The notes beneath the pieces are model-generated. The model made no database searches. It worked only from the letters and a program-made list of their open reading frames with translations, and was not told where the DNA came from. A stretch of DNA of 64,000 bases, taken from NCBI RefSeq assembly GCF_011300875.1, contig NZ_CP049862.1, positions 2,604,001-2,668,000 on the forward strand, written 5' to 3'. The position numbers and the translations under genes were made by a program. This stretch comes from Sanguibacter sp. HDW7 (lineage in GTDB: Bacteria; Actinomycetota; Actinomycetes; Actinomycetales; Cellulomonadaceae). This document shows positions 16,267 through 24,691 of this stretch, piece after piece. Positions within the stretch are counted from its first letter, which is position 1, and each line of letters begins with the position of its first letter.

Positions 16267-17400
16267 ATGCGCATCGGTGTTCCCACGGAGACCAAGACCC
16301 ACGAGTATCGCGTCGCGTGCACGCCCGGCGGCGTCCACGCGCTCGTCGCGGCGGGCCACGAGGTGCTCGTCGAGGCCGGCGCAGGTGCGGGCTCCGCGAT
16401 GCCCGACGACGAGTACGTGGCGGCCGGCGCGACCGTCGTCGCGGACGCGGCCGAGGTCTGGGAGCGCGCGGAGCTCGTCTGCAAGGTCAAGGAGCCGACG
16501 CCCGCCGAGCACGCCTTCCTGCGGCCGGGGCTCGAGCTCTTCACCTACCTCCACGCGGCCGCCGACCTGCCGCTCACGCGTGCGCTGCTCGACCACCGGG
16601 TCACGAGCTATGCGTACGAGACGGTCACCGGGCCGACGGGTGGCCTGCCGCTGCTCGCGCCGATGAGCGAGATCGCGGGCCGGCTCGCGGCGCAGGTCGG
16701 CGCGGTCGAGCTCATGCGCTCGCGCGGCGGCCGCGGCATCCTCATGGGCGGCGTGCCGGGCACGCCGCCGGCGAAGGTCGTCGTGCTCGGCGGCGGGACC
16801 GTCGGGCGCAACGCGGCGCAGATCGCGCTCGGCATGCGCGCGGACGTCACCGTCGTCGACGTCTCGCCGGAGACGCTGCGGGCGATCGACACCGAGACGG
16901 GCGGTCACGTGCGGACGGCGGCGTCGAACGCGTGGGAGATCGAGCCGTTCCTCCTCGAGGCCGACCTCGTCGTCGGGGCCGTGCTCGTGCCGGGGGCGCG
17001 GACGCCGCACCTCGTCTCGGACGCGCTCGTCGCGCGGATGCGCGAGGGCTCGGTGCTCGTCGACGTGGCGATCGACCAGGGCGGCTGCTTCGAGGTGTCG
17101 CACCCCACGACGCACGACGACCCCGTCTACCAGGTGCACGGCTCGCGGGTGTACGCGGTCGCGAACATGCCCGGAGCGGTGCCGGTGACGTCGACGCGGG
17201 CGCTGACGAACGCGACGCTGCCGTACCTGCTCGAGCTCGCCAGCGGCACGCCCCTCGCGGTCGGGGCAGACGACGGCGACCACGGGCCGCGCCGGGCGTC
17301 GCTGCGCGCGGGCCTGCGCGCCGGGCTCACGACGAGCGAGGGACTCGTCCGGCACGTGGGCGTCGCCGACGCCCATGGCCTGCCGCTCGCCACCCTCTGA
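16267..17400 (+). CDS. ald: alanine dehydrogenase
   Basis: NAD-dependent oxidative deamination of L-alanine to pyruvate, reversible; cytosolic hexamer in characterised enzymes. 377 aa, full length. Starts M-R-I-G-V-P-T-E-T-K as in the family; substrate-site K-V-K-E-P at about 77-81 and the H-A-A-A-D region (His about 97) correspond to the catalytic Lys and His; NAD fold V-V-V-L-G-G-G-T-V-G at about 175-184; V-D-V-A-I-D-Q-G-G-C and V-A-N-M-P-G-A-V-P further on. Flanked by terminators on both sides, so monocistronic. Confidence 0.96.
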   Translation: MRIGVPTETKTHEYRVACTPGGVHALVAAGHEVLVEAGAGAGSAMPDDEYVAAGATVVADAAEVWERAELVCKVKEPTPAEHAFLRPGLELFTYLHAAADLPLTRALLDHRVTSYAYETVTGPTGGLPLLAPMSEIAGRLAAQVGAVELMRSRGGRGILMGGVPGTPPAKVVVLGGGTVGRNAAQIALGMRADVTVVDVSPETLRAIDTETGGHVRTAASNAWEIEPFLLEADLVVGAVLVPGARTPHLVSDALVARMREGSVLVDVAIDQGGCFEVSHPTTHDDPVYQVHGSRVYAVANMPGAVPVTSTRALTNATLPYLLELASGTPLAVGADDGDHGPRRASLRAGLRAGLTTSEGLVRHVGVADAHGLPLATL

Positions 17401-17440
17401 CCGTCTGTACCCTCCGTCTCCACGACGCGCGCGACGCGGA

Positions 17441-17473
17441 GGGCGGTCTCCCGCGCTGCGCGGGAGACCGCCC
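17441..17473. terminator. bidirectional terminator between ald and the transporter operon
   Basis: Perfect 15-bp stem (17441-17455 with 17459-17473), 3-base loop, lengthened by flanking CGGA/CTCCG. Lies between two convergent genes and probably serves both. Confidence 0.75.
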
Positions 17474-17519
17474 CTCCGTGCCTCGAAGCCGTCGGGCGAC
17501 CCCGAGGCGGCCGCGACGC

Positions 17520-18242
17520 CTAGGACGCCCCGACCCGCTCGACCACACCGAGCGCGTCGAGCAGCTGCAGCCGCAGGTCGCCGAAGCCCGGCACGCCACG
17601 TCGACGCGGGCGTGCGAAGGGCACCGTGACGTCAAGACCGACCCGACCGTCCGTGAGCACGACGACCCGGTCGGCGAGGAGGATCGCCTCGTCGACGTCG
17701 TGCGTGACGAGCAGCGCTGCAGGCCGGTGCCGTCGGCACAGGTCCGCGACGAGCATCTGCATGCGGATGCGTGTGAGGGCGTCGAGCGCCGCGAACGGCT
17801 CGTCGAGCAGCAGCACGCCCGGGTCGCGCACGAGTGCTCGCGCGAGCGCCACCCGCTGGGCCTCGCCCCCGGACAGCTGGGTCGGCCACGCTCGCTCACG
17901 TCCCTCGAGCCCGACCTCCGAGAGCGCCGCGAGCGCCTGGGCGCGCGACTCCCGCCCGCGCCGCCGACCGAGGAGCACGTTGCCGAGAAGCCGCGTGCCC
18001 GGCAGCAGCCGCGGCTCCTGGAAGACGACCGACAGCGGCTCGCCCACCTCGACGTCGCCGTCGTCGTGCGTCTCGAGCCCCGCGAGGATCCGCAGGAAGG
18101 TCGTCTTGCCCGAGCCCGAGGGACCCAGGAGCGCGACGAACTCCCCCGGTGCGACGTCGAGCGAGAACCCGTCGAGCACCGCGCGGCCGTCGAACGCACG
18201 CGTGACGTCGCGCGCGGAGATGCCTGTCGCCCGCGCGCTCAT
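17520..18242 (-). CDS. ABC transporter ATP-binding protein, SsuB/TauB type
   Basis: Cytosolic ATPase of 240 aa for a nitrate/sulfonate/taurine-class importer. Walker A G-P-S-G-S-G-K-T-T (about 40-48), Q-loop F-Q-E-P-R-L-L, signature L-S-G-G-E-A-Q-R, Walker B L-L-L-D-E-P-F, H-loop V-T-H-D-V-D-E-A. The Q-E-P-R-L-L-P form is typical of SsuB. Last gene of a five-gene operon; its ATG overlaps the permease stop (ATGA). Substrate not evident from sequence. Confidence 0.9.
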   Translation of the reverse strand: MSARATGISARDVTRAFDGRAVLDGFSLDVAPGEFVALLGPSGSGKTTFLRILAGLETHDDGDVEVGEPLSVVFQEPRLLPGTRLLGNVLLGRRRGRESRAQALAALSEVGLEGRERAWPTQLSGGEAQRVALARALVRDPGVLLLDEPFAALDALTRIRMQMLVADLCRRHRPAALLVTHDVDEAILLADRVVVLTDGRVGLDVTVPFARPRRRGVPGFGDLRLQLLDALGVVERVGAS

Positions 18243-19231
18243 GCGGCTCGCCCCGCGACCCGGTAGGGCAGGAGCACCCGCTCCAGACCCCGGACGAGCA
18301 GGTCGACCCCCAGCCCCCACAGCGCGTAGATCGCCACGATGACGACGAGCACGTCCGTCTGGAAGTACTGCTGCGCCGACGTCATGAGCGCGCCGAGCCC
18401 CCGCGGGGCGTTGGTGAGCTCTGCGACGATGAGCGCGAGGAGCGACACCGACAATGACACGCGCAGCCCGACGAGCACCGACGGCACGGCCCCCGGGAGC
18501 ACGACGCGGGCCACGAGCGCCGGGCCTCGCAGGCCGAAGACGCGCGCGGCCTCGACGACCTTGCGATCGACATGGCGCACCCCCGCATGGATGTTGAGGT
18601 AGAGGGGGAAGGTCGCAGCCGTCGCGATGATGATCGTCTTCGGCAGCTCGCCGATGCCGAACCACAGGACGAGCAGCGGTGCGACCGCGAGGAACGGGAT
18701 CGTCCGGAGCATCTGCAGCGTCGGGTCGAGCAGCTCGTCGGCAAGGCTCGAGAGACCCGCGACGACCCCGAGGAGGATCCCGAGCGAGGCGCCGATCGCG
18801 AAGCCGGTCGCGACACGCACGAGCGAGACCTCGAGGTTCTCGGCGAGCACCCCGCTCGCGACGAGGTCGCGCGCGGTCGCGACGACCTGCCAGGGCGCGG
18901 GGAAGATCCGCTCCGGGACGCGCCCGGACGCTGATCCCCATGCCCAGGCCGCCAGCAGGGCGGCCGGCACGGCGGCACGCCGCAGCACCTGCCCCATGCG
19001 ACGGACGGCGCGCCGGCCGCCGCCGGCGACCGTGCGGGTGCGCTGCCGTGGGTGCCGCGCAGGCCCGACCGGCGAGGTCGCGGCCAGGGCGTCGCGGGAC
19101 GCCGCCGTGCTCCCGGCACCGGTCTCGCGGGAGTCGCCGGCGGTCCCCGGGACGGAGGCCTCGGGGACGGAGGCCCCGGGGCTGGAGGCCCCGGGGACGG
19201 GGGTCCGCACCGTGGCGGCACGCGCGCTCAT
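18239..19231 (-). CDS. ABC transporter permease, SsuC/TauC type
   Basis: Inner membrane permease of 330 aa with about six helices and a BPD_transp_1 core; the coupling motif E-A-A-R-V-F-G-L-R-G-P contacts the ATPase. Odd feature: about 80 N-terminal cytosolic residues are low complexity (Pro-Gly-Ala-Ser repeats such as P-G-A-S-V-P-E-A-S-V-P-G), encoded by tandem near-repeats of about 18 bases at 19140-19205. This tail is not part of the family fold; a later start is conceivable but the ATG at 19231 overlaps the binding-protein stop (ATGA), which favours it. Confidence 0.88.
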   Translation of the reverse strand: MSARAATVRTPVPGASSPGASVPEASVPGTAGDSRETGAGSTAASRDALAATSPVGPARHPRQRTRTVAGGGRRAVRRMGQVLRRAAVPAALLAAWAWGSASGRVPERIFPAPWQVVATARDLVASGVLAENLEVSLVRVATGFAIGASLGILLGVVAGLSSLADELLDPTLQMLRTIPFLAVAPLLVLWFGIGELPKTIIIATAATFPLYLNIHAGVRHVDRKVVEAARVFGLRGPALVARVVLPGAVPSVLVGLRVSLSVSLLALIVAELTNAPRGLGALMTSAQQYFQTDVLVVIVAIYALWGLGVDLLVRGLERVLLPYRVAGRAA

Positions 19232-20277
19232 GGCGCGACCCACCCGTCGACGTCGAACTCCTTCGCGCCCGAACCGTTCCCCGTGAGGAACTCGAGCGTC
19301 GTCCGGACGGTGGCGAGGCCCTGCGGGTCGACCCGCTCGGTGCCGTACGCCCAGAGGTTTGCCTGCAGGACGACGTCGACGGGTGTGCCCGTCGTCTCCG
19401 ACACCCAGGTGGCGTACGCATCGTGGTCGGCCTCGATCGCGTCGGCGCCCGCGCGGTAGACCTCCCACACGGCGTCCGCGAGCCCGGGCTGCGCCGTCGC
19501 GGTCGCCTCGGCCGTGAGCGTCACGTTCGTCGCGAGAAGGTCCGGGTCGTCGACGCTCGCGCGGCTGAGGACGTGGAAGTCGTTGCGCGCGAGCCACAGG
19601 CCGGCGGTCGTCGCGGGCAACGGCACCGCGTCGACGTCCCCGCGCTGCAGCGCGGGCAGGGCGTCGGCGAAGAGGAGGTTGACGAGCTCGACGTCCTCGA
19701 GGACACCCGCGCGCTCGAGGACCGCACGGCCGTACTTGTCGAAGTTCGAGCCGAACTGCAGCGCGACCTTCTTGCCCGCGAGACCCTCGACGGACGTGAT
19801 CGACGCGTCCCGCGTGAGGAACCAGATGTCCGACGAGGGCCGGGCGATCGCGAGCGCCGTCACTGGGCGGTCGCTCGCGCGCGCCTGCGTCGCGGGCGTG
19901 TCACCGATGAACCCGACCGTGACGTCGCCCGAGAGCAGCGCCTCGACGACGGGCGGTCCGTTGCTGAAGCCGACGAACTTGTCGTATACGTATCCGTGCG
20001 GCGCGAGGATCTTGTCCGCGAGGCCGCGTGCGACGGCGTAGCCGAAGGGCCCGGTCTCGGTCGGCGTCGTGCCGGGACCGCCGTTCCACGGTGCTCCGAC
20101 GACGAGGGGCGTGAGCCCTCCGGGCGCGTTCGGGGTGGAGCCGGTCGCGTCGGCGGTGGCCGAGCACGCGGCGAGGGCGAGGGCGGCGGCCGCGGCGAGC
20201 GCGGTCGCGAGAGGGCCGCGGGCACGGCGGCGGGACGGCGTGTCGGACGGTGTGCGGGCAGAGCGGAGCCAGGTCAT
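19228..20277 (-). CDS. substrate-binding lipoprotein, SsuA/NMT1-like
   Basis: 349 aa predicted lipoprotein: basic N-region, hydrophobic stretch, and lipobox L-A-A-C at about 36-39. The mature part is an NMT1/SsuA-like two-lobe binding protein (V-V-E-A-L-L-S-G-D-V-T-V-G-F-I-G-D-T-P, G-K-K-V-A-L-Q-F-G-S-N and the Q-R-G-D-V-D-A-V region). The class binds small sulfonates, nitrate, taurine or thiamine precursors. A GGAGG site 6-7 bases before the ATG supports the start. It follows the ferredoxin gene by 104 bases and overlaps the permease start. Confidence 0.88.
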   Translation of the reverse strand: MTWLRSARTPSDTPSRRRARGPLATALAAAAALALAACSATADATGSTPNAPGGLTPLVVGAPWNGGPGTTPTETGPFGYAVARGLADKILAPHGYVYDKFVGFSNGPPVVEALLSGDVTVGFIGDTPATQARASDRPVTALAIARPSSDIWFLTRDASITSVEGLAGKKVALQFGSNFDKYGRAVLERAGVLEDVELVNLLFADALPALQRGDVDAVPLPATTAGLWLARNDFHVLSRASVDDPDLLATNVTLTAEATATAQPGLADAVWEVYRAGADAIEADHDAYATWVSETTGTPVDVVLQANLWAYGTERVDPQGLATVRTTLEFLTGNGSGAKEFDVDGWVAP

Positions 20278-20381
20278 GGGGTCCTCCAGGACGAAAGGGT
20301 GGGCGGGTTGGACGAAGGGCAGGGCAGAGGGCGGAACGGCGGCCGGGCGGTCAGAGGAGACCGCGGCCGGGTCGGGAACCG

Positions 20382-20690
20382 CTAGGCGTCCGCGACGGCG
20401 GGGTCGGCTCGGCTCCAGCCGACGCGGCGCCGGTAGAGCCCGAGCATCCCCGCCTCCTCGAGCGCGTCGCGGTCGTGGGCGCGCGAGCCGGGCGGCTCGG
20501 GCGTGCGCAGCGGGCTCACGAAGATCGCCTCGGCGGGGCACCAGGCCTCGCACTGGAAGCACGTCTGGCAGTCCGACTGGCGCGCGATCGTCGGCACGCC
20601 GCCGGGGACGGCGTCGAAGACGTTGGTCGGGCACACGCGCACGCAGATGTCGCACAGCGTGCAGCGGACGGGGTCGACGAGCTCGATCAC
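20382..20690 (-). CDS. 2x[4Fe-4S] ferredoxin, AprB-like electron carrier
   Basis: 102 aa with two four-cysteine motifs in the first half: C-T-L-C-D-I-C-V-R-V-C-P (about 10-21) and C-Q-T-C-F-Q-C-E-A-W-C-P (about 41-52), each CxxCxxCxxxCP, so two [4Fe-4S] clusters. The C-terminal 45 residues are Arg/Asp/Ala-rich and probably wrap around a partner, as the tail of AprB does around AprA (analogy). It sits 45 bases after the flavoprotein gene and likely passes electrons to or from it. Confidence 0.88.
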   Translation of the reverse strand: MIELVDPVRCTLCDICVRVCPTNVFDAVPGGVPTIARQSDCQTCFQCEAWCPAEAIFVSPLRTPEPPGSRAHDRDALEEAGMLGLYRRRVGWSRADPAVADA

Positions 20691-20735
20691 GGTGTCTCCT
20701 TCGGGTCGGTGGTGGGGGTGCGGGGAGCGCGGGGC

Positions 20736-22427
20736 TCACGCAAGGGCGGCGAGCGCCGCCCGGGAGGGCGCGTGGTCGGGTCCTGTGCGCGGGGTCTCGG
20801 GGTCGGTGGCGACCCACGGGTCGCCGAGGCCGCCGACGAGGAGGCGGCGTGCCTGCGCAGGGTCCTCCTCGGGGTGGTCGAGGCGGTGATGCATGCCGCG
20901 GGTCTCGGTGCGGGCTGCGGCGGCGGCGAGCACCCAGCGGGCGGTCTGGAGCATCCCGGCGACCTCCCGCGTGCGGAGCGCGGACGCGGAGCGGGGACCG
21001 TCCGCGGGGACGAGGACGCCGGGGGCCGACGCGAGCGCGCGCAGCCGAGCATCTCCGTCGCGGAGGATGGCGGCGTCCTTGAGGACGGAGCGCGCGGGTG
21101 GGTGGGTCTCGGACTGGACGGCGTCGAGGACGGCACGCGGCGTCGGCGTCGTCGGTCCGGGCGCGGTGCCCCGCAGGCCGAGCCCGCCCGCGGGCCGCGG
21201 GGTTCCGCGGTAGGGAGGGAGGCTCCGGGCCTCGTCGGCGGCCGTGCGCCCCGCCCACGTGCCTGTCGCGACGGCCCACGAGAGGTTGGGGCCACCGGCG
21301 CCGGTCGCGGCTCCGACGAGGCGGTCTCGCGCGGCGACGTCCCCGGCGGCGTAGAGGCCGGGCACGCCGGTGGACGCGTCGAGGCCGGCGAGGTGGAGGC
21401 CTCCGGTCCCGCGGACGGTGCCCTCGGTCACCCAGTCGATGGGGAAGTGCTCGGTGAAGGGGTCGATGCCGAGCTTGTCGGTCACCATGAAGAAGTTGGG
21501 CATGGCGGCGCGGGCGTCGGCGCGGCGCTCGGGCGGCACCTGGTCGAGGCGTGCGGTGATCGTGCCTCGCTCGGAGGCGCGGAGCAGCTCGATGCGCGTC
21601 GCGTGGAGGTCGCGGTAGTGCAGGGGCCGGCCCTCGTGGTCCCGGTAGGACGCGGCGACCATGAAGCCGTTCTTGTCCATGGACGTGCCGAGCGGGACCA
21701 TGCCGTAGAAGCTCGACATCTCCATGGATGACAGGTGGGCGCCGACCTCGGCGGCCATGAGGTGGCCCTCGCCGGTGTCGACGTCGCCGCCGAGGGCGTG
21801 GCTGCGCCACGTCGTGCCGCCTGTGGCGAGGACGACGGCGCCGGCGTGGACGGTCCAGGGGCGTCCGGCGCGCGGCTGGACGCCCTGGGCGCCGCGGACG
21901 CGGCCGTCGTCGTCGCGGAGGAGCTCGAGCGCGGGGCTGTGGTCGAGGATGCGCGCGCCGCCGCGTCGGGTCCGGCCGCGCAGGAAGCGCAGGTAGTCGG
22001 GGGCGGTGCCCGCGAGGGTGCGGTCGTCGCCGCGGCTGCGGTCGGTGTCGCGGGTCGCTCCCCTGGGGCGGTAGCCCCAGCCGTCGACGAGCGCGGTGCG
22101 GGACCATGCCTCGTCGAGGACCGCCTCGATCCAGCGACGGTCGGTGAGGTGGCCGCCGCGGGCCTCGCGGACGGCGATCTCGGCGTCGCGCCGGGCGGCG
22201 TCCGGCGGCAGGAGCCAGTGGGCGACGCCCGCGGCGGCCGCGACGCCGGAGGTGCCGCACCACCCCTTGTCGACGAGGACGGTGCGGGCTCCGTGCTCGG
22301 TCGCGGCGATGGCGGCCCAGGTGGCGGCGGGGCCTCCGCCGACGACGAGGACGTCGGCGGTGAGGGTGATGCCCTGGGCGTCGTCGTGGTCGACGGTGGG
22401 GGCCGGGGCGCGGCGCGGAGCTGTCAT
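20736..22427 (-). CDS. FAD-dependent oxidoreductase, fumarate reductase/AprA-like flavoprotein subunit
   Basis: 563 aa. Rossmann FAD motif V-L-V-V-G-G-G-P-A-A at about 26-35 and V-D-K-G-W-C-G-T-S-G; A-V-V-L-A-T-G-G-T at about 200; M-E-M-S-S-F-Y-G in the capping domain; and C-terminal FAD site V-P-G-L-Y-A-A-G-D-V-A followed by G-G-P-N-L-S-W-A. This is the succinate dehydrogenase/fumarate reductase/adenylylsulfate reductase alpha superfamily. With a two-cluster ferredoxin next door it resembles an AprAB pair, but I cannot confirm AprA substrate residues. First gene of the operon with the SsuABC-type transporter, suggesting it oxidises or reduces an imported small (sulfur?) compound. Weak ribosome site. 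Confidence 0.85.
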   Translation of the reverse strand: MTAPRRAPAPTVDHDDAQGITLTADVLVVGGGPAATWAAIAATEHGARTVLVDKGWCGTSGVAAAAGVAHWLLPPDAARRDAEIAVREARGGHLTDRRWIEAVLDEAWSRTALVDGWGYRPRGATRDTDRSRGDDRTLAGTAPDYLRFLRGRTRRGGARILDHSPALELLRDDDGRVRGAQGVQPRAGRPWTVHAGAVVLATGGTTWRSHALGGDVDTGEGHLMAAEVGAHLSSMEMSSFYGMVPLGTSMDKNGFMVAASYRDHEGRPLHYRDLHATRIELLRASERGTITARLDQVPPERRADARAAMPNFFMVTDKLGIDPFTEHFPIDWVTEGTVRGTGGLHLAGLDASTGVPGLYAAGDVAARDRLVGAATGAGGPNLSWAVATGTWAGRTAADEARSLPPYRGTPRPAGGLGLRGTAPGPTTPTPRAVLDAVQSETHPPARSVLKDAAILRDGDARLRALASAPGVLVPADGPRSASALRTREVAGMLQTARWVLAAAAARTETRGMHHRLDHPEEDPAQARRLLVGGLGDPWVATDPETPRTGPDHAPSRAALAALA

Positions 22428-22448
22428 GGGTGGGAACGTACGGCCTTC

Positions 22449-22465
22449 TGGACCAAAAAGGTCTA
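22449..22465. promoter_or_regulatory. inverted repeat upstream of flavoprotein operon
   Basis: TGGACC-AAAAA-GGTCTA, one mismatch, 22 bases before the flavoprotein ATG. It resembles the corynebacterial McbR sulfur-regulator box (TAGAC-N6-GTCTA) but with one base more spacing and one arm mismatch, so the identity of the regulator is open. Confidence 0.35.
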
Positions 22466-22508
22466 GATAAAGCCCTCATCCCGCATCGCGAGACGAACCA
22501 GGAGCATT

Positions 22509-22523
22509 CCTAGCCTGGCTAGG
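22509..22523. promoter_or_regulatory. operator palindrome at the MMPL promoter
   Basis: Perfect 7-1-7 palindrome CCTAGCC-T-GGCTAGG lying 2 bases before the -10 box. Its 13-base core differs at a single position from the palindrome upstream of the MarR gene at 31232, so the same repressor probably binds both. Confidence 0.6.
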
Positions 22524-22525
22524 TA

Positions 22526-22531
22526 TATAGT
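22526..22531 (+). promoter_or_regulatory. -10 box of mmpL-like gene (leaderless)
   Basis: TATAGT, 6 bases, GTG at 22538. No Shine-Dalgarno. A repressor on the adjacent palindrome would block RNA polymerase. Confidence 0.6.
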
Positions 22532-22537
22532 GACGGC

Positions 22538-24691
22538 GTGACTGCAAACCGACCCCGCGCCCGCCTCTTGCGCAGCCTCGTCCCCGCACTCCTCGTCGTC
22601 GTCTGGCTCGGCCTCGCCTCCTTCGGCGGGCCGCTCTTCGGACGTATCTCCGAGGTCTCGTCGAACGACCCCACGGCGTACCTGCCGACGAGCGCGGAGG
22701 CCACGCAGGTCCAGAAGCAGCTCACCGGGTTCCTCGGCAGCGACGCGATCCCCGCGGTCGTCGTCGCGGTCCGTGACAGCGGCCTCACCGAGGCCGACCT
22801 CGCAGCGCTCGGCACCGCGGCCGAGGCCGCAGCCACGCTCCCCGAGGTCGCGGGCGGCGCAAGCCCCGCGATCCCGTCCGAGGACGGCAAGGCCGTCCAG
22901 GTGTTCGTACCGCTCAGCACGCAGTCCGACCTCGGAGAGGGCGTCGAGGCGATCCGCGCGGCGTTCGCAGCCGACGTCCCCGACGGCGTCGAGGTGCTCG
23001 TCACCGGGCCCGCAGGCCTCTCCGCCGACCTCGGCGACGCCTTCGCCGGCATCGACGGCCTTCTCCTCGGCGTCGCGCTCGCCGCGGTACTCATCATCCT
23101 CGTCGTCGTCTACCGCTCCCCCGTCCTGCCGCTGCTCGTCCTCATGACGAGCGTCTTCGCACTGTGCGCGGCGCTCGCAACCGTGTGGCTGCTCGCCAAG
23201 GAAGGCGTCGTGCTGCTCTCGGGGCAGACGCAGGGCATCCTCTTCATCCTCGTCATCGGCGCCGCGACCGACTACGGGCTGCTCTACGTCTCACGCTTCC
23301 GCGAGGAGCTCCGCGTCCAGCCCGACCGGTGGGCCGCGACCCGCGCCGCCCTGCGCGGCGCGCGCGAGCCCATCCTCGCGTCGGGCGGCACCGTCGTCGC
23401 GGGCCTCCTGTGCCTGCTGCTCTCCGACCTCCAGTCGAACCGCGACCTCGGCCCCATCGCCGCGATCGGCATCGTCTGGGCGATGATCGCGTCGTTCACG
23501 CTCCTGCCCGCGCTGCTCGCGCTCACGGGCGGCGCGGCGTTCTGGCCGCGACGCCCCCAGCCCCTCACGGCGGAGCAGGCCGCCGACCCCCACACCCGCA
23601 TGCCGCAGCGCGGCCTGTGGCACGCGCTGCCGGGCGCCGTCGCACGCCGCCCGCGCGCTCTCTGGGTGGGGACGACGGCCGTCCTGCTCCTCGCGTGCGT
23701 CGGGCTCACGCAGCTCAAGGCCGACGGCGTCGCGCAGTCCGACCTCGTCATGGGCGACTCCCCCGCACGCACGGGCCAGCAGCTGCTCGCGCAGCACTTC
23801 CCGGGCGGCTCCGGCTCCCCGACCTACGTGCTCGCCCCGGAGGCGGGCCTCGACGAGGTCGCACGGACCGTCCTCGGGACGCAGGGGGTCGCCTCGCTCG
23901 CCGTCACCGCGAAGGACTCCCCGTCGGGCACCGCCCCCGTCACCGCCGACGGCATCCAGGCCGTCGGTCGCCCCGGCACGGAGCCGCCCGCCCCGACCGT
24001 CGTCGACGGCCAGGTCCTCCTCCAGGCGACCCTCACCGACGCCGCCGACTCCGCAGCCGCCGAGTCGACCGTGCGCGCCCTGCGCGCGAGCGTCGGCGAC
24101 GACGTCCTCGTCGGCGGCTCGACCGCGACCGCCATCGACTCCGACGACGCCTCCGTGCACGACCGCAACCTCATCATTCCCGTCGTGCTGCTCGTCATCC
24201 TCATCATCCTCGGGCTGCTGCTGCGCGCGGTCGTCGCGCCGATCCTCCTCATCGCGACCGTCGTGCTGTCCTTCGGCGCGACGCTCGGCGTGAGCGCGCT
24301 GGTCTTCAACCACGTGCTCGACATGCCGGGCGCCGACCCCGCCGTGCCGCTGTTCGGCTTCGTCTTCCTCGTGGCGCTCGGCATCGACTACAACATCTTC
24401 CTCATGACCCGCGTCCGTGAGGAGTCGCTCGCCCACGGCACGCACCACGGCATCACGCGCGGGCTCGCCATCACGGGCGGCGTCATCACGTCAGCAGGGC
24501 TCGTGCTCGCCGCGACGTTCGGCGCCCTCGCCGTCCTGCCGATCCTCTTCCTCGTGCAGCTCGCGTTCATCGTCGCGTTCGGCGTGCTCATCGACACGTT
24601 CCTCGTGCGGACCGTCCTCGTGCCCGCGCTCGGCTACGACCTCGGCCGCGTCATCTGGTGGCCGTCGCGGCTCGCGAAGGGCGAGCGGTGA
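22538..24691 (+). CDS. MMPL-family RND transporter
   Basis: 717 aa inner membrane exporter of the RND/MMPL class. Two similar halves: each has one helix, a large extracytoplasmic domain (about 35-165 and 400-530) and five more helices. Proton-relay type residues are seen in A-T-D-Y-G-L-L-Y (about 246-253) and the matching G-I-D-Y-N-I-F-L in the second half. In Corynebacterium glutamicum an MMPL gene (cg0722) lies inside the crt operon; here the gene lies 3' of a converging crt operon and shares an operator with its regulator, so a role with carotenoids or other polyprenyl lipids is likely. GTG start, leaderless. Confidence 0.9.
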   Translation: MTANRPRARLLRSLVPALLVVVWLGLASFGGPLFGRISEVSSNDPTAYLPTSAEATQVQKQLTGFLGSDAIPAVVVAVRDSGLTEADLAALGTAAEAAATLPEVAGGASPAIPSEDGKAVQVFVPLSTQSDLGEGVEAIRAAFAADVPDGVEVLVTGPAGLSADLGDAFAGIDGLLLGVALAAVLIILVVVYRSPVLPLLVLMTSVFALCAALATVWLLAKEGVVLLSGQTQGILFILVIGAATDYGLLYVSRFREELRVQPDRWAATRAALRGAREPILASGGTVVAGLLCLLLSDLQSNRDLGPIAAIGIVWAMIASFTLLPALLALTGGAAFWPRRPQPLTAEQAADPHTRMPQRGLWHALPGAVARRPRALWVGTTAVLLLACVGLTQLKADGVAQSDLVMGDSPARTGQQLLAQHFPGGSGSPTYVLAPEAGLDEVARTVLGTQGVASLAVTAKDSPSGTAPVTADGIQAVGRPGTEPPAPTVVDGQVLLQATLTDAADSAAAESTVRALRASVGDDVLVGGSTATAIDSDDASVHDRNLIIPVVLLVILIILGLLLRAVVAPILLIATVVLSFGATLGVSALVFNHVLDMPGADPAVPLFGFVFLVALGIDYNIFLMTRVREESLAHGTHHGITRGLAITGGVITSAGLVLAATFGALAVLPILFLVQLAFIVAFGVLIDTFLVRTVLVPALGYDLGRVIWWPSRLAKGER

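Follow-up and report, generated by a model that had tools for sequence, protein, structure and literature searches.

The five-gene block at positions 17520-22427 of the window (the whole 64,000-nucleotide stretch of Sanguibacter sp. HDW7 DNA that was analysed) is, judging from its sequence, likely to be an AsfAB-type operon that scavenges sulfur from an organic sulfonate-like anion. The block is complete, with all five genes on the minus strand, and is flanked by two candidate control elements:

20736..22427, minus strand: asfA-like FAD flavoprotein (P0001), 563 aa; PF00890 and PF02910 over cut-off; fumarate reductase/AprA superfamily
20382..20690, minus strand: asfB-like 2[4Fe-4S] ferredoxin (P0002), 102 aa; GTG start; two CxxCxxCxxxCP motifs
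19228..20277, minus strand: SsuA/NMT1-like substrate-binding lipoprotein, 349 aa; PF09084 over cut-off
18239..19231, minus strand: SsuC-like ABC permease, 330 aa; PF00528; best NCBIfam match SsuC
17520..18242, minus strand: SsuB-like ABC ATPase, 240 aa; PF00005; best NCBIfam match PRK11247
22448..22466, no strand: putative operator, palindrome CTGGACC-N5-GGTCTAG, ending 21 nt ahead of the asfA start codon
17441..17473, no strand: putative terminator, perfect 16-bp inverted repeat past the last gene of the operon; absent from the list of the T-tract terminator scan

The genes are separated by gaps of 45 and 104 nt, followed by two 4-nt ATGA overlaps, and a consensus scan of 17300-22700 found no sigma-70-type promoter. 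The identical five-gene set was found together in seven further genomes of the same family (L026-L032), and because it recurs in them the arrangement is not due to chance; the surroundings of the block in these genomes were largely not common between genera. The original prediction of one compact block that joins uptake genes to a redox pair is supported.

Asf proteins are already in print. According to the available part of a review (PMC4267179), the asfRABC genes of Pseudomonas putida S-313, whose cluster includes a binding protein and an ABC transporter, are needed to obtain sulfur from aromatic sulfonates, and a transposon in asfA led to loss of aromatic sulfonate use while aliphatic sulfonate use was kept. 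In the available text on Cupriavidus metallidurans CH34, asfRAB is placed on CHR2 and AsfA/AsfB are named reductase-ferredoxin (PMC2864759). The same paper states for CHR2 the length of the unannotated record analysed here (2,580,084 bases), in which only one place matched at E<=1e-5; this was taken as the AsfA/AsfB pair. The window flavoprotein was 42% identical to the CH34 flavoprotein over residues 22-563, and the window ferredoxin was 56% identical to its CH34 partner. A tree, in which long branches were flagged, gathered 74 AsfA-like rows into one clade (100/100) with the window and CH34 flavoproteins inside and six outgroup rows outside; the clade, with the CH34 row as published AsfA and the S-313 AsfA not among the rows, excludes NadB- and AprA-like proteins. 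The eight cysteines in the two motifs of the AsfB-like ferredoxin were invariant in 9 aligned sequences. The window pair resembles the CH34 pair in full-length homology and in clade, and shares with asfRABC and CH34 AsfAB a flavoprotein and a 2[4Fe-4S] ferredoxin adjoining an ABC importer and a binding protein of the sulfonate type. It differs from asfRABC in having no LysR gene visible on the scanned upstream side, in a palindrome that in relatives goes with an Rrf2 gene, and in belonging to a divergent subclade with fixed substitutions.

AsfA relatives were detected in 9 of 149 genomes (the window genome counted; G104, at 31% identity, left out). Alignment A3 comprised 48 of 60 extracted sequences together with P0001. 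Gene neighbourhoods were analysed around the best 80 of 191 relatives, a sample seeded from conserved peptides that therefore leans to typical AsfA; after removal of nine (L113, L120, L122-L128; 23-31% identity), 71 loci from the best 80 of 191 were counted. In 65 of these 71 loci a ferredoxin lay no more than 500 bp from asfA, and 45 had a match to the binding protein at up to 5 kb; the linked binding protein and ABC transporter, a feature of the family, are present in the window operon. In other phyla, asfAB adjoin sulfur genes, for example ssuD, serine O-acetyltransferase and a PLP enzyme with a transsulfuration tag. Organosulfur, the earlier guess, is supported as the likely substrate class. 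The proposal of an assimilatory system not yet described is not supported: the pair fits a family whose asfRABC genes appear in the available parts of PMC4267179, PMC2864759 and PMC9694294. A first report of an unknown system was rejected in view of asfRABC in PMC4267179 (available part), and the operon probably represents a kind already described, of which the window carries a divergent branch.

We then compared the redox proteins with enzymes of known structure. The AsfA flavoprotein matched the alpha subunit of PAPS reductase 8a8o with an E-value of 5e-29, an hhalign alignment to it spanned P0001 residues 21-532 at about 20% identity, and the AsfB-family profile matched the beta subunit, 8a8o_C, with 4e-10. 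The available description of 8a8o makes it the assimilatory AprAB-like PAPS reductase of Methanothermococcus thermolithotrophicus, with FAD and two [4Fe-4S] clusters. Because both redox proteins are homologous to its subunits, the AprAB architecture does occur in assimilation, in agreement with the earlier view that the window pair is not dissimilatory. Like 8a8o, AsfAB combines a fumarate reductase-family alpha flavoprotein with a 2[4Fe-4S] beta subunit, both homologous; unlike 8a8o, to which identity is only about 20%, AsfAB is linked to importer genes and by alignment does not keep the catalytic His and Asn. The catalytic residues of APS reductase, H398 and N74 in A. fulgidus, correspond to T341 and W71 in P0001, an indirect and approximate assignment because it was transferred through the homologous PAPS reductase. 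The AprA-type model NF005331 scored 29.9 bits on P0001 against a cut-off of 557, and no AprA sequence matched over cut-off in the nine genomes searched. A dissimilatory APS reductase was rejected, given a model score far below cut-off and differing residues at the aligned catalytic positions.

AsfA shares the FAD fold family, with PF00890 and PF02910, of succinate dehydrogenase, fumarate reductase and L-aspartate oxidase. The dicarboxylate-site residues of FrdA, H232 and R390, and its FAD-linking H44 (FrdA numbering; the printed chain is offset by one) align to Y241, T375 and G61 of the window AsfA. In contrast to SdhA, FrdA and NadB, AsfA thus has neither the FAD-linking His nor the dicarboxylate-site residues at the aligned places. 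Succinate dehydrogenase and fumarate reductase were rejected on account of these residues, and FAD is probably bound non-covalently. All NCBIfam models shown for the flavoprotein scored below their cut-offs, and the domain search recognised no separate NAD(P)H-binding domain in the window AsfA.

The curated SsuA, SsuB and SsuC models were the best matches of the importer, all below cut-off, so its components are relatives of the alkanesulfonate importer and not certified members. The lipoprotein scored 84.6 bits with TIGR01728 (cut-off 163.5), the permease 205 bits with the SsuC model (cut-off 347) and the ATPase 228 bits with PRK11247 (SsuB; cut-off 395). The nearest solved sequences to the lipoprotein were SsuA 2x26 (1.3e-10) and the taurine binder 6ssy (2.6e-10), and at E<=1e-3 it matched only itself in the genome; its LAAC at residues 35-38 is presumably the lipobox. 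The components thus resemble SsuA, SsuB and SsuC best, but unlike SsuABC with SsuD/SsuE the window operon has no SsuD or SsuE.

The absence of SsuD, TauD and a flavin reductase from the operon, already remarked in the original prediction, was confirmed, and the analysis was extended to the whole genome. TauD (PF02668) and PF01613 had no match genome-wide. The genome encodes eight LLM-class (PF00296) proteins, besides two fragmentary matches, and has three PF03358 FMN-reductase matches; none of the eight passed the SfnG or NtaA/DmoA cut-off, and there was no SsuD match at E<=1e-15 among them. A CE1758/CE1759-type pair at G000:C1 about 1.630-1.632 Mb exceeded both cut-offs (TIGR04036, 715 bits; TIGR04037, 269 bits); a MarR gene sits between its two genes, and the pair is unlinked to the window operon. 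Going from 0-2 kb out to 8-10 kb around asfA (71 loci from the best 80 of 191 relatives), binding-protein hits dropped from 0.087 to 0.017 per kb (roughly 5-fold) and permease hits from 0.105 to 0.004 (roughly 26-fold). For ATPase hits, many of which belong to unrelated ABC genes, the corresponding densities were 0.079 and 0.030 per kb. LLM density in successive 2-kb bins was 0.058, 0.049, 0.027, 0.053 and 0.030 per kb, an uneven rise of about twofold, so that the guess of a tight clustering of monooxygenases with asfAB was only weakly borne out; importer genes were clustered with asfAB more tightly. NtaA- or SsuD-type genes occurred within 6 kb in at least 24 of the 71 loci (from the best 80 of 191), a lower bound because the MsnO8-type LLM present in L031 and L032 escaped the seeds, and 27 of the 39 loci in this sample with both ABC genes within 6 kb had no NtaA- or SsuD-type gene within that distance.

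Because the palindrome at 22448-22466 lies just ahead of asfA, its distribution was analysed. The exact form CTGGACC-N5-GGTCCAG occurs upstream of asfA in L027, L028 and L029, and four genomes, all from one genus (L027-L030), have an Rrf2 gene adjoining it; the palindrome is absent from L026, though that genome has Rrf2. With the pattern TRGACCN5GGTCYA the window palindrome was the sole match in the 3.35-Mb genome, and the reversed control pattern also gave one match. The McbR-type motif TAGAC-N6-GTCTA was discarded for this site, where the spacing is 7. Among the genes scanned, no regulator gene adjoins the window operon (the upstream neighbour is an MMPL gene). A 59% identical Rrf2 protein is encoded elsewhere in the window genome, at G000:C1:996394-996858; the CymR-like Rrf2 beside the operon in relatives scores below the CymR cut-off. 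Rrf2 relatives were present in 63 of the 149 genomes, against 9 of the same 149 for AsfA, and beyond the genus of L027-L030 the idea that Rrf2 and asfA form a dedicated pair found no support. In the available text on Rhodococcus qingshengii IGTS8, a CymR/Rrf2 protein was detected only in dibenzothiophene culture. Transcription may be controlled at this putative operator by an Rrf2/CymR-like protein.

A LysR gene precedes asfA in L031 and a 93% identical one lies near asfA in L032; none was seen on the scanned upstream side of the window operon. With a single LysR query, none of the 71 loci (from the best 80 of 191) had a match within 3 kb; an iterated profile identified LysR-like ORFs within 6 kb in 8 of these 71, three of them within 3 kb. 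Over the 17.5 kb that surround the CH34 pair the same profile gave no LysR-like ORF, although the available part of the CH34 paper writes asfRAB (PMC2864759). LysR was for these reasons not treated as defining the AsfAB family, and the scarcity of LysR-like ORFs near AsfA loci, with none around the CH34 pair, made us hold the AsfAB reading slightly less firmly.

In the proposed mechanism, the lipoprotein, permease and ATPase would take up an organic sulfonate-like anion under shortage of sulfate or cysteine. AsfA, with FAD, and AsfB, with two [4Fe-4S] clusters, would form an electron-transfer pair making the redox step that frees sulfur, probably as sulfite, which the nitrite/sulfite reductase-family protein of the cell could reduce; the Rrf2 protein encoded elsewhere in the genome is the candidate regulator. 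The AsfAB reading comes in two forms, which differ in what AsfAB does. The pair could supply electrons to an unlinked two-component FMN monooxygenase such as the CE1758/CE1759-type pair, a form to which we give somewhat less than an even chance. It is the published view of asfAB (PMC4267179, available part). Both models of the CE1758/CE1759-type pair pass in this genome, with the MarR gene between the two, and NtaA-type monooxygenases lie near some asf loci elsewhere; but the pair is unlinked to the operon and comes with an FMN reductase and a MarR regulator of its own. In addition, well-studied flavoproteins of this superfamily, namely succinate dehydrogenase, fumarate reductase, aspartate oxidase and APS/PAPS reductase, act on small organic or sulfur substrates and are not NAD(P)H:ferredoxin reductases. 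Because AsfA by alignment keeps the catalytic residues of neither fumarate nor PAPS reductase and shows no separate NAD(P)H domain, and importer genes cluster with asfAB more tightly than monooxygenase genes, the published label of a monooxygenase reductase can be questioned.

Alternatively, AsfAB could be an AprAB-like flavo/iron-sulfur enzyme that needs no monooxygenase partner and itself converts the imported compound, for instance by reductive or oxidative activation, which is possible but rather unlikely. Homology of both subunits to an assimilatory PAPS reductase with FAD and two [4Fe-4S] clusters, the lack of a recognised NAD(P)H-binding domain, the 27 of 39 importer-bearing loci without an NtaA/SsuD-type gene, the modest LLM enrichment beside that of binding protein and permease, and a genome with no TauD match and no passing SsuD, SfnG or NtaA/DmoA all point this way. 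Against it, T341 and W71 occupy the aligned positions of the catalytic His and Asn, so that the APS reductase mechanism is not simply transferable; NtaA- or SsuD-type genes do lie near at least 24 of the 71 loci (best 80 of 191), the drop in ATPase density is modest, and P. putida S-313 reportedly converts arylsulfonates to phenols, a sign of oxygenation in its branch. Outside the AsfAB reading, the operon might serve a non-sulfur nutrient such as a carboxylate or thiamine precursor, which we consider improbable. The ligands of NMT1/SsuA-like proteins are diverse, the lipoprotein does not reach the SsuA cut-off, and the published phenotype belongs to another branch of the family; however, the adjoining CymR-like Rrf2 (below cut-off) in relatives, the sulfur genes beside asfAB in other phyla and the absence of fumarate reductase catalytic residues at the aligned places speak for sulfur, as does the AsfAB relationship with its aromatic sulfonate phenotype (PMC4267179, available part).

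Within the AsfAB family, the window AsfA belongs to a six-member subclade whose stem is long, at 1.12 changes per column. W207, S234 and D368 are common to all six members; at these positions at least 96% of the 68 other AsfA carry F, G and E. Because of this stem and these changes at near-invariant positions, the substrate of the window operon may differ from that of typical AsfA. A more novel but rather unlikely reading is that AsfAB is not a monooxygenase reductase but a free-standing AprAB-like enzyme acting on imported organosulfur, of which the window clade would be a version with its own substrate and Rrf2/CymR-type control.

The enzyme chemistry matters since asfA serves as a soil marker gene for aromatic sulfonate use (PMC9694294, PMC4267179, available parts) and the open-licence literature searched, in its available parts, gave no account of it; no AsfAB-like proteins were found in the accessible portions of PMC8557817 and PMC7661421. 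The palindrome common to relatives provides a first regulator hypothesis. Since neither SsuD, NtaA/DmoA, SfnG nor TauD was recognised in its genome, this compact operon would offer a clean setting in which to distinguish whether AsfAB cleaves or activates sulfonates or feeds an oxygenase.

The original prediction had placed an operon at 22427-17520, and its position was borne out by five minus-strand genes, arranged in this order:

First gene, minus strand: flavoprotein, 563 aa (PF00890, PF02910)
Second gene, minus strand: 2[4Fe-4S] ferredoxin, 102 aa
Third gene, minus strand: SsuA/NMT1-like lipoprotein, 349 aa
Fourth gene, minus strand: permease, 330 aa
Fifth gene, minus strand: ATPase, 240 aa

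The lipoprotein and permease genes share 4 nt, as do the permease and ATPase genes, and gaps of 45 and 104 nt separate the flavoprotein from the ferredoxin gene and the ferredoxin from the lipoprotein gene, respectively. A perfect 16-bp inverted repeat lies directly past the last gene. The five genes are predicted to form one operon. Its upstream neighbour, in divergent orientation, encodes an MMPL-family protein. Between the two, near the MMPL start, lies a palindrome at 22506-22526, ATTCCTAGCC-N-GGCTAGGTAT, with arms 90% complementary; it could serve the MMPL gene as an operator.

A tblastn search of a plasmid collection with the flavoprotein matched 61 records, with query coverage of 80% or more in 58; those opened belonged to Pseudomonadota, Actinomycetota, Bacillota and Cyanobacteriota. 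The Cupriavidus metallidurans CH34 replicon of 2,580,084 bases held a single matching place, a flavoprotein-ferredoxin pair 42% and 56% identical to the window proteins. Because there was one match in that record, this pair presumably corresponds to the published CH34 asf locus; a search of the surrounding 17.5 kb turned up no LysR-like asfR. The asfRABC system is described as comprising a LysR regulator and a reductase/ferredoxin system together with a binding protein and an ABC transporter; Pseudomonas putida S-313 with a transposon inserted in asfA could no longer use aromatic sulfonates but still used aliphatic ones (PMC4267179). The window operon is most likely this known kind of system, in divergent form.

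The divergence was apparent in a tree of 80 rows, 74 AsfA-like and six outgroup, in which the AsfA-like rows grouped together (support 100/100). The window flavoprotein fell into a six-row clade with those of L026, L028, L029, L031 and L032 (support 100/100), on a stem of 1.12 changes per column. Long branches and the letter make-up of the window row drew warnings from the program, so the deep joins are unsure. W207, S234 and D368 occur in all six members; of the 68 other AsfA proteins, at least 96% have F, G and E at these positions.

To describe the neighbourhoods of asfA elsewhere, the best 80 of 191 relatives were fetched as loci and 71 were used. In 65 of the 71, a ferredoxin gene lay no more than 500 bp from asfA. 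Within 5 kb, there were binding-protein matches in 45 loci, both permease and ATPase matches in 33, and LLM matches in 23; the LLM counts are lower bounds because the MsnO8-type LLM of L031 and L032 was not picked up by the seeds. From 0-2 kb to 8-10 kb around asfA, matches per kb fell from 0.087 to 0.017 (binding protein), 0.105 to 0.004 (permease), 0.079 to 0.030 (ATPase) and, unevenly between, 0.058 to 0.030 (LLM). ORF clustering placed ATPase and permease both within 6 kb in 39/71 loci and an NtaA- or SsuD-type LLM gene in 24/71; 27 of the 39 ABC loci had no such LLM gene within that distance.

Two asfAB pairs lie near each other in L013, L058, L077, L082, L084 and L096 (also L079, L091 and L119). 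The tree places the two AsfA proteins apart in L077, L082, L084 and L096, suggesting that they are paralogues whose roles differ. Four Nocardia loci (L109, L110, L111 and L112) encode AsfA-clade proteins and have no AsfB match in the nearest 500 bp; at a distance of 503-561 bp each has an ORF from a single family, malic-enzyme-like in L109, and a ferredoxin-independent branch is possible. In a groundwater Chloroflexi MAG (G152, locus L123), 45 stretches match the AprA model, all under its cut-off, AprA/FrdA-like flavoproteins being greatly expanded in this one genome.

The flavoprotein was matched at E<=1e-20 in 10 of 149 genomes, both numbers including the window genome. The other nine are eight relatives at 46-70% identity and a genome at 31%, the latter not counted as an AsfA carrier. 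No match at this threshold was obtained in five other genomes of the genus (G001-G005). The five genes occur together in seven loci (L026-L032), and L033 carries a rearranged set of transporter genes. Few flanking ORFs are common between genera; the window and L033 have a PF03013-type ORF in common (61%), and L026 has a weak match to a 399-aa ORF of the window.

Upstream of asfA, the palindrome CTGGACC-N5-GGTCCAG is exact in L027, L028 and L029; the window version (22448-22466) has one mismatch and ends 21 nt before the start codon. The pattern TRGACC-N5-GGTCYA matched the 3.35-Mb window genome once, at this site, but the reversed control also matched once, so that a single match is no more than chance would give and the argument is one of position. 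An Rrf2 gene (PF02082) adjoins the palindrome in L028; its product resembles CymR and IscR, scoring under the cut-offs of both. Counterparts 95-97% identical adjoin the palindromes of G075, G086 and G047, in the last near a contig end, separate from the asfA contig (C72, locus L030). The window genome encodes a 59% identical protein (G000:C1:996394-996858) among SRAP and type II secretion-like genes, with no recognised sulfur gene around it. In the published account of Rhodococcus qingshengii IGTS8, a CymR/Rrf2 protein was detected solely in dibenzothiophene culture, its gene likewise not adjoining sulfur genes. Counting against control of the palindrome by Rrf2, L026 lacks the palindrome before asfA though its genome has an Rrf2 protein (48%), and G083 and G059 have neither palindrome before asfA nor Rrf2 match, carrying a LysR gene instead.

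As to catalysis, the AsfA profile matched succinate dehydrogenase (2e-35), fumarate reductase (about 4e-32), the alpha subunit of the assimilatory PAPS reductase 8a8o (5e-29, in one stretch, positions 9-504 of 532) and APS reductase (2.6e-22). The AsfB profile matched the PAPS reductase beta subunit at 4e-10, although many ferredoxins score equally or better. Residue placements are approximate at about 20% identity: in the FrdA alignment, with the printed chain offset by one, the FAD-linking His falls on G61 of AsfA, and His232 and Arg390 on Y241 and T375; in the PAPS reductase alignment, T341 and W71 stand at the places of the catalytic His and Asn of AprA. AsfA would thus appear to be a distinct catalytic subfamily. 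A domain profile search recognised no separate NAD(P)H domain in the window flavoprotein, PF07992 matching over no more than the first 119 of its 291 positions. For such a subfamily, the role of a plain NAD(P)H:ferredoxin reductase seems to fit less readily than that of an enzyme acting directly on a small substrate.

The window genome has eight LLM-class proteins and two fragmentary matches. None of the eight matched an SsuD model at E<=1e-15, their SfnG and NtaA/DmoA matches were all under cut-off, and neither TauD nor PF01613 had a match in this genome. One LLM protein passes TIGR04036 and is encoded alongside MarR and TIGR04037 FMN reductase genes, the three in a row. This row of CE1758-type LLM monooxygenase, MarR regulator and CE1759-type FMN reductase (L161:4026-6345; G000:C1 about 1.630-1.632 Mb) is predicted to supply a two-component monooxygenase. 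The genome also encodes a nitrite/sulfite reductase-family protein, under curated cut-offs, near a siroheme synthase-like gene, which makes it plausible that this host could assimilate released sulfite.
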